A stretch of DNA of 64,000 nucleotides. Origin: Paracoccus versutus. Lineage in GTDB: Bacteria; Pseudomonadota; Alphaproteobacteria; Rhodobacterales; Rhodobacteraceae. Shown here piece by piece: positions 61,338 through 62,296 of the stretch; position 1 is the stretch's first letter, and each line of letters begins with the position of its first letter. Where the stretch lies: contig NZ_JRKO01000009.1 in NCBI RefSeq assembly GCF_000763885.1, forward strand, positions 1 to 64,000. The letters are read 5' to 3'. Under the pieces are notes generated by a model, which did not search any database, was not told the DNA's origin, and saw only the letters and a program-made list of their open reading frames with translations. The position numbers and the translations under genes are program-made.

Positions 61338-61392
61338 GAGTATTTGGGGAACGAAGAAGCGCAGGCCCGGCTTCTTCGTTCCATAAATACCC
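61338..61392. repeat. Inverted pair of the recurrent intergenic motif (copies 3 and 4)
   Basis: Two copies face each other: GAGTATTTGGGGAACGAAGA (from 61338) and TTCTTCGTTCCATAAATACC (from 61372). Together they form a stem with a perfect 13-base core (GGAACGAAGAAGC / GCTTCTTCGTTCC) around a GCAGGCCCG loop. The motif matches copies at 1791–1812 and 29451–29473. It may be a bidirectional terminator or a dispersed repeat. Confidence 0.7.
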
Positions 61393-61459
61393 GAACTGCC
61401 TTTCACGCTTCGCCAAGCATGCCCTGCATGCGCGAATGCCGAAGCAGCGGAAAATGGAA

Positions 61460-61486
61460 CGGGCCGCCCCCCTGGAGAACGGCCCG
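61460..61486 (-). terminator. Intrinsic terminator of the candidate RNA
   Basis: On the minus strand CGGGCCG pairs with CGGCCCG around a 13-base loop and is followed by TTCCATTTTCC. It would end a leftward transcript near 61445–61455, well short of the convergent thiolase gene. Confidence 0.6.
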
Positions 61487-61562
61487 CGAGATCCACGGAG
61501 ATGGTCCGGTTAGGGTTGGTGCCCACCGTCCCAGCCAGGGTTTACGACCCTTGGGGCTGCCC

Positions 61563-61619
61563 TCAGGCCACGGCCCCCCTGACTGTCCCGACACCTCTCT
61601 CCAATATCACTCTCGACAC
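61563..61619 (-). CDS. 18-residue mini-ORF with an extended Shine-Dalgarno sequence
   Basis: GTG start, peptide MSRVILERGVGTVRGAVA, then TGA. The 17 bases at 61635–61619 read GAAAGGAGGTGGTCCAG, differing by one base from the perfect complement of the usual bacterial 16S rRNA 3' end; GGAGG is seven bases before the GTG. No run of a single amino acid typical of classical attenuator peptides is present. Translation may be real, or the site may serve to capture ribosomes. Its start region can be hidden by two alternative helices. Confidence 0.45.
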   Translation of the reverse strand: MSRVILERGVGTVRGAVA

Positions 61620-61681
61620 TGGACCACCTCCTTTCAATAAGTTGCCTTATGGGGTCCAGCCTGCCACAGAACCTTTAACAG

Positions 61682-62296
61682 TCAATGAATTTGCGCGCGG
61701 CGCTGGATCAAATTTCCGACGACGATGCGGAAGGGCACGAGCGCCAGGACTGCCTGCGCAAGCTTCACCCCGCAGTCGGCCACTGCCAGCGAAACCCACA
61801 GCGGCTGGACAGGCCCCTGGCCCAGCAGCGGAACCAGTTCATTTGCCCAGGAAACATCGTCCGCCGGGAAGATCGGCGTCAGCTGCGAGGCAAAGGCGAT
61901 GCTGAAGAAAACGGCAGTGTCGAGGATCGAACCGGCGACGCTGGCCGCCAGGGGTGGTAGCCACCAGTTGTATTTTCGCAACTGGTTGAAGACCGAGATG
62001 TCCATCAGCTGCGCCGAAAGGAAGGCCGCGCCCGAGGCTATGGCGATGCGCAGCGTGGTCTTGTCCAGCCCCGCGGCCACGACCGAGCACAGCACGCCGG
62101 TCACGAAGCCGGCATAGACCACCTTGCGCGCGGCGGCCGGGCCATAGACCCGGTTCATGATGTCGGTCACGAGGAAGGCGACCGGATAGGTCAACGCCCC
62201 CCAGGTCAGCCAGGAGCCCAGCAGATGCTGGACCAGGATGTTCGAGGCCACCACGACGGCGGCCATGGCGATGACGCCGGGAAGGATACGGGACAT
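61682..62296 (-). CDS. Queuosine precursor transporter (VUT family, YhhQ-like)
   Basis: A 204-residue inner-membrane protein with about six helices importing queuosine precursors such as preQ0/preQ1. Family motifs: VVVASNILVQHLLGSWLTWG near the N-terminus, TYPVAFLVTDIMNRVYGPAA (the VUT signature), FLSAQLMDISVFNQLRKYNW and TAVFFSIAF. The ATG at 62296 is preferred because the transmembrane region begins there; the longer frame lies in the promoter. TTGACA-N17-TATGCG is 56–84 bases upstream. The candidate structured RNA follows immediately downstream on the same strand. Confidence 0.9.
   Translation of the reverse strand: MSRILPGVIAMAAVVVASNILVQHLLGSWLTWGALTYPVAFLVTDIMNRVYGPAAARKVVYAGFVTGVLCSVVAAGLDKTTLRIAIASGAAFLSAQLMDISVFNQLRKYNWWLPPLAASVAGSILDTAVFFSIAFASQLTPIFPADDVSWANELVPLLGQGPVQPLWVSLAVADCGVKLAQAVLALVPFRIVVGNLIQRRAQIH

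Follow-up and report, generated by a model that had tools for sequence, protein, structure and literature searches.

A small RNA gene of Paracoccus versutus related to CC2171, with a conserved mini-ORF and a masked Shine-Dalgarno block that matches the 3' end of 16S rRNA

The gap between two genes of Paracoccus versutus raised the question of what kind of RNA is encoded there and how it might act. The window, a stretch of 64,000 nucleotides, was found to contain a small RNA gene on the minus strand at about 61650 to 61449, flanked by the gene of a Vut_1-domain (YhhQ-like) transporter and a convergent thiolase gene. An earlier note, made from the letters of this DNA, had proposed a compact RNA with several stems, a mini-ORF and an intrinsic terminator. 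The mini-ORF, several predicted stems and a terminator-like hairpin were all present between 61690 and 61449, the span of the features described here (Table 1). The note had also seen no gene before the terminator that could be regulated in cis, and this observation was borne out. A cis-acting attenuator with a leader peptide would have a co-directional gene after the terminator; in the window the next gene is the convergent thiolase gene. Complementarity to the 3' end of 16S rRNA, which was absent from the earlier description, was found in the follow-up analysis.

Table 1. Positions of the features of the small RNA locus in the window
Feature	Position	Strand	Basis or remark
-35-like TTGACT	61680..61685	-	sequence; overlaps the transporter TGA stop (61682-61684)
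-10-like CAGGCT, 16-nt spacer after TTGACT	61658..61663	-	sequence
AUAAG-GCAA-CUUAU hairpin	61637..61650	-	GCAA hairpin of the earlier note
Super-extended Shine-Dalgarno block, 18 nt complementary to the 16S rRNA 3' tail (two G-U)	61618..61635	-	duplex energy ranking
Hairpin P1 around the start codon (UCCA..UGGA, UGUC..GAUA)	61600..61623	-	alignment
Mini-ORF, GTG start, 18 codons, TGA stop, (M)SRVILERGVGTVRGAVA	61563..61619 (GTG 61619 to TGA 61563)	-	ORF and relatives
Helix C, 5' strand (codons 12-15)	61577..61585	-	double changes in 7/9 pairs
Helix C, 3' strand	61532..61540	-	alignment and covariation
A' arm GGACCAUCUCC, masks the block	61497..61507	-	pairing core and covariation
B' segment UCUCG	61487..61491	-	candidate partner of codons 2-3 (CGAGA, 61611-61615)
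Intrinsic terminator-like hairpin, 13 pairs, T-rich tail	61487-61449	-	terminator scan

A search of 701 bases with all 4227 Rfam families detected a match to RF01867 (CC2171) at 61643 to 61461 on the minus strand (37 bits, E = 3.6e-6), so that the RNA is not wholly unassigned as the earlier note had it, although this score falls short of the family's gathering cut-off of 75 bits. In the full Rfam scan of the window there was no match at the gathering level, tmRNA, RNase P, SRP, 6S and riboswitches included, and no tRNA or tmRNA was detected by ARAGORN, in line with the earlier inability to place it in any of these classes. The RF01867 match rests on the 5' block of the model (GAAAGGAGGUGAUCCAGUGUC), from which the window RNA differs at one position (A to G), and on the terminator hairpin; the middle does not align. 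Of 61 genomes sampled as relatives, 43 had a match to this model, 2 of the 43 having two matches each (G030 and G048), and the cut-off was exceeded in 1 of the 61 genomes and by 5 of 18 chosen loci. Of 14 control genomes, that of Caulobacter vibrioides gave a match, and that of Deinobacterium chartae, which lies outside the class, gave one below the cut-off. As 37 bits is less than the cut-off, the window RNA was filed as a relative of CC2171 and not as a member; it represents the CC2171-type RNA group in the Rhodobacterales. Both have the 5' block GAAAGGAGGUGRUCCAGUGUC and a terminator-like hairpin rich in G and C, and in the loci over the cut-off (L046, L051, L088, L091 and L113) a short ORF could be read as well. 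They differ in that the arm masking the block follows the ORF in the window RNA but lies inside the ORF in CC2171-like loci, and in the transporter gene found upstream of the window RNA. One extra covarying pair (PMC11701678) and the Mesorhizobium candidate MH_s33 (PMC5596092) have been reported for RF01867. Neither a function of CC2171 nor a match to 16S rRNA was found in the literature searched, supplements excepted (PMC10117765, PMC5521070, PMC5082802, PMC5107571, PMC3927594, PMC2873474, PMC11005374, PMC11701678 and PMC5596092).

The most distinctive part of the RNA is the block GAAAGGAGGUGGUCCA, which is followed by GUG, 17 further codons and UGA. When 22-mers taken at 3-nt steps from both strands of the whole window were ranked by duplex energy with the 16S tail, the block was first of 42652, with 18 continuous pairs and -34.4 kcal/mol, and the next separate site had -29.9 kcal/mol. 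The tail used was confirmed in a replicon of Paracoccus aminovorans, in which the 16S end reads CGGCTGGATCACCTCCTTTCTAAGG; a 16S 3' end was not found in the organism's own genome sequence or in ten other genomes, eight of them from the same genus. The match stops before the precursor (TAAGG), and relatives vary at this point upstream of the block. The block was nearly constant across orders, in rows found by the block itself, and its masking partner moved and changed; a constant block with a shifting masking partner suggests that the block pairs with something outside the RNA, the 16S tail being the simplest candidate. In genomes with a drifted block, the masking arm has drifted as well. Of 29 model-found loci, which had been chosen for lacking the exact motif (29 of the 30 such loci entered this count), 14 lacked the RUCC extension of the complementarity, 3 of them reading AUCU.

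Relatives of the window RNA are widespread in the Alphaproteobacteria, with a recurrent layout of GAAAGGAGGUGRUCC, NUG-UC and a short ORF. The exact motif was detected in 61 of 113 genomes of the class versus 0 of 186 other Pseudomonadota genomes. The pattern GAAAGGAGGTGRTCCNNTGTC was present in at least 119 stretches, and of 387 genomes from the class 71 contained it; among 80 record titles listed for it, 2 named Gemmatimonadetes/Gemmatimonadota, 3 named Proteobacteria only and the rest were alphaproteobacterial. Within the Rhodobacterales, the form GAAAGGAGGTGRTCCAGTGTC occurred once each in 93 of 196 genomes, and a covariance model gave one match each in 33 of 39 genomes without the exact motif (weakest E, 3.9e-4), the 39 having been hand-picked from such genomes at nearly one per genus. 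These counts supplied the conservation beyond close strains on which the earlier note had made its proposal depend. Reversed-pattern controls of the class, Rhodobacterales and phylum scans yielded zero matches. The exact motif was also seen in two Gemmatimonadetes/Gemmatimonadota-labelled records (L037 and L062), through chance or mislabelled bins; chance may account for both, about 4 chance matches being reckoned in 257 Gb at equal base frequencies. In genome G048, two such RNAs were present (L003 and G048:C1:2921849-2922077); an MSHCH-type ORF belongs to one of them and the GATCCGATGTC start to the other, and these may be two paralogous forms.

The start codon and the length of the mini-ORF were examined in these relatives. 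In 173 distinct occurrences, the first codon after the block was GTG in 104, ATG in 65, TTG in 4 and CTG in none; the TG and the following TC were fixed by the search pattern (NNTGTC), and the informative part is the absence of CTG. For the row-wise counts, occurrences too close to the end of a locus were dropped. The peptide pattern then selected 75 Rhodobacterales-type rows; removal of L062 (other group) and of L039, L061 and L065 (no 3' anchor) left 71, and 70 of these had an 18-codon ORF, with TGA (35), TAG (24) or TAA (11) as the stop; the 71st row (L185) had 20 codons. The ORF was readable in 24 of the 30 model-found loci and had 18 codons in 22 of them, the others having 22 (L229) and 12 (L238). 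In other orders, the peptides were 14 to 36 aa long, except in L048, which is cut by the locus end, and in L120, L152 and L155. In these last three loci the same block stands before ORFs of 56 to 59 codons with a hydrophobic stretch (MSHGA..ALFG..ALLTAG), and here the block may have been joined to a gene for a small membrane or secreted protein or may have evolved into one.

Peptides were recognisable within each order, and both length and sequence differed between orders. In a peptide-level test of the 70 rows with an 18-codon ORF, frame 0 had the best score (0.31, compared to -0.97 and -0.67 for the other frames), which was within the null (-0.43, sd 0.55, largest 0.84). Several codons were used without synonyms in the Rhodobacterales rows (GAG in 70/70, ACA in 70/70), and such invariant silent sites are as expected of a constraint at the RNA level. 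NAY codons are those read by queuosine tRNAs; they made up 0 of 17 codons in the window's ORF and 16 of 1241 over the 73 rows of the order, and a queuosine-sensing leader peptide was rejected on this count. In S. meliloti, the peptide SEP1 is described as having 23 aa and a pI of 4.18, as being conserved in Rhizobiaceae and as ranking first in translation efficiency among 54 new sORFs (PMC10117765). Homologues from five genomes of a family taken for Rhizobiaceae (f156) had 23 to 24 aa and pI values of 4.4 to 5.9 (4.37, 4.41, 4.68, 5.75 and 5.94), agreeing with SEP1 in length in all five and in charge in three (pI 4.37, 4.41 and 4.68). It is our guess that these homologues might be SEP1, matched as they are by length and pI and not by sequence.

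The fold was assessed by energy and by covariation. The folding energy of the single sequence was within chance (z = -0.94; 38 of 200 shuffles equally good), but covariation was not, and chance structure was rejected. A model of 24 pairs was applied to 44 of 46 non-redundant Rhodobacterales rows (L180 and L183, which were cut short, were left out). Paired cells amounted to 90.2%, compared to 85.8% in shuffles and at most 50.9% in slid alignments, and 51 double-change cells were counted versus 17.6 in shuffles, with none of 500 as good. Helix C was the source of all of these double changes, 7 of its 9 pairs having changed on both sides, and the covariation that the earlier note had proposed as a check was thereby detected. 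Hairpin P1 had 98.9% of its cells paired, but 4 of its 8 pairs were invariant and none was double-changed, which makes for weak evidence. The GCAA tetraloop named in the earlier note does sit on a hairpin in the window, but a hairpin with a GNRA loop folds in just 2 of 22 sequences from the organism's own genus (with 5 pairs in the window and 3 pairs in L028), and it was rejected as a conserved feature; the sole part that recurs in relatives is, by eye, a CAAC-like stretch.

The arm A' (GGACCAUCUCC) is similar to the 16S tail (GGAUCACCUCC) and can pair with the block (A). The 7-bp core of this masking helix was kept in 69 of 71 rows. On the alignment of 44 sequences its changes were one-sided, with 85.1% of cells paired, and the block side hardly varied. 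Across 88 of 100 rows with a found A' core (L238 was skipped), 201 of 352 extension pairs were formed compared to 184.9 in permuted rows (sd 2.8), and none of 1000 permutations was as good. In divergent genera the extension was altered on both sides, as in L235 (GGAGGTGCTC with GAGCACCTCC). Nine genomes of the f156 family were searched, and in the five with a changed core the change of GGAGG to GGAAGG was compensated by that of CCTCC to CCTTCC, the arm taking CTTCC forms. Outside the Rhodobacterales, the ORF itself often contained the best partner of the block. In the Bradyrhizobium type, GGTGATCC pairs with GGGATCGCC, and a relative of this type (L059, Xanthobacteraceae) had a compensated change (GGTGGTCC with GGGGCCGCC). 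The best partner was moderately better than in shuffles in four groups (mean z -1.1 to -1.9; 28 to 71% of rows beyond the 5% mark), and no such signal was detected in the Sphingomonadales-type SHG group (mean z -0.31; 0 of 21 rows).

A further candidate helix (B:B'), which would join the first codons to the stretch just ahead of the terminator as in CC2171, was examined in 83 rows, mostly from other orders, after removal of near-identical rows, ORFs of more than 40 codons and rows without a found terminator; a few Rhodobacterales rows (L050, L186 and L190) were retained in this set. The score was 14.84 versus 13.19 in permutations (sd 0.24; none of 200 as good). In 65 Rhodobacterales rows the signal was weak, with 12 of 300 permutations as good. 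Where the segments follow each other in the order A, B, A', B', the helices A:A' and B:B' cross, which implies either a pseudoknot or mutual exclusion.

The ends of the transcript were examined together with the neighbouring genes. Of 75 Rhodobacterales-type rows, 67 had the motif TTGA[CT] 46 to 51 nt ahead of the block, one had it at 56 nt and 7 lacked it; by eye, the upstream regions of relatives often had CTGTG-CA--CT in common. A strict sigma-70 scan of the region did not find a promoter. Two terminator-like sites were counted between 60900 and 62200, with no excess over shuffles (mean 1.1, sd 1.2). Judged by these elements, the transcript would start near 61650 and would be expected to extend for about 200 nt to the terminator-like hairpin. 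Neighbours were counted by tblastn with the transporter and the thiolase, in flanks that were often about 1.5 kb. Of 104 Rhodobacterales-type loci, 96 had a yhhQ-like gene upstream in the same orientation, and a yhhQ-like match was also present in 5 further loci outside the peptide filter, which are Rhodobacterales by our own reading. In 127 of 132 other loci there was no yhhQ-like match within the flanks examined. The thiolase was downstream in 12 of the 104 loci and convergent in all 12, and ten flanking proteins, nine of them from other groups, had varied Pfam domains or none. The upstream transporter is thus kept within the Rhodobacterales and the thiolase is not, and from these neighbours cis-regulation of a downstream gene in the window is unlikely. 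A plasmid-borne element was unsupported, as blastn against a plasmid collection gave no match. Between the terminator of the RNA and the thiolase gene, a long near-perfect hairpin (GTATTTGGGGAACGAAGAAG..CTTCTTCGTTCCATAAATAC) was observed on both strands at 61340 to 61390. Its half-site has 88 copies in the organism's genome with at most 1 mismatch (48 forward and 40 reverse), which face each other in pairs within 60 bases at least 6 times, and the hairpin is a dispersed palindromic repeat, probably a terminator-like one.

The earlier note had left a choice between a free-standing small RNA and an RNA derived from the 3' UTR of the transporter message. The place next to the transporter held good, but the promoter-like TTGACT at the transporter stop and the similarly placed TTGA[CT] of relatives make an own transcript more likely than one processed from that message. 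The second possibility, that the RNA belongs to the 3' UTR of the yhhQ message or is cut from its 3' end and is perhaps linked to queuosine supply, gains from the same-strand yhhQ-like gene of the Rhodobacterales-type loci, and is quite improbable in view of this promoter-like sequence, the other loci lacking a yhhQ-like match and the scarcity of NAY codons. The RNA could also be an ordinary small-protein gene, that is, the mRNA of an 18-aa trans-acting peptide with a strong Shine-Dalgarno site. The kept start and stop codons, the peptides recognisable within orders and the best score for frame 0 are consistent with this explanation, but we regard it as unlikely when peptide length and sequence vary between orders, synonyms are never used at several codons and the frame test lies inside its null.

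Two further explanations make an outside RNA the partner of the block. As an anti-16S decoy, the block would titrate free 30S subunits or block the 16S 3' end, and translation would be incidental. This would suit a complementarity of 18 bp that ends before the 16S precursor, where relatives vary, and a block that is the same across orders (in rows found by it) with the arm either inside or after the ORF. It would not account for a start codon of the A/G/T form and a kept stop, or for genera in which the extension is lost and the masking arm changes along, and it appears improbable. Alternatively, the RNA may be a sponge for alphaproteobacterial sRNAs with CCUCCUCCC anti-Shine-Dalgarno loops, such as the described SmelA075/SmelA099 and RS0680a (PMC3927594), with which the GGAGG core could presumably pair. 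This explanation is very improbable, as the extension past GGAGGUG fits 16S rRNA and not CCUCCUCCC, and a start codon follows the block at ribosome-binding distance. A likeness to these sRNAs, as far as they are described there, is that the A' arm (CAUCUCC/CACCUCC) can itself pair with Shine-Dalgarno sites; unlike in SmelA075 and RS0680a, the arm is covered here by the Shine-Dalgarno block of the same RNA instead of lying in a hairpin loop, and the RNA also has an ORF (PMC3927594).

We favour, with a probability of about 0.5, a free-standing, structured small mRNA or dual-function RNA of about 200 nt, the ribosome-binding site of which is opened by capture of a 30S subunit. The fold and the ORF are well supported; transcription from an own promoter, switching and output are what we infer from them. 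In the resting state, the block GGAGGUGGUCC would pair with the downstream arm GGACCAUCUCC, a mimic of the anti-Shine-Dalgarno tail of 16S rRNA, and the start codon would lie within a small hairpin, with the end of the ORF held by helix C. A 30S subunit would displace the arm, its 16S tail forming as many as 18 bp with the block. Translation of the 18 codons would melt helix C and might leave the 16S-like arm single-stranded until translation stops, giving two RNA states set by ribosome capture. As the output, we consider RNA stability and base pairing between the freed arm and the Shine-Dalgarno sites of other mRNAs more likely than a peptide product, because the peptide differs between orders. 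The rnTrpL/peTrpL system of S. meliloti is comparable in being a small RNA with a mini-ORF, which is translated there and is known from sequence here. In the window RNA there is no co-directional downstream gene and no run of regulatory codons, and an extended Shine-Dalgarno site takes the place of the leaderless start described for rnTrpL (PMC10117765).

A broader proposal, which we hold to be unlikely as it stands, is a class-wide switch that would sense the supply of free 30S subunits via the 16S tail and, by releasing a mimic of this tail, would block the Shine-Dalgarno sites of other mRNAs. If this were true, one small RNA would couple ribosome supply to the translation of a target set. 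The RNA occurs once per genome in much of the class, well-studied laboratory genera included, and is represented in Rfam by just a Caulobacter sRNA, the model of which (CC2171) seems to cover part of the RNA's range only. With its kept mini-ORF, 18-bp match to 16S rRNA and covarying mask, it is a testable case of translation gating in the Alphaproteobacteria.
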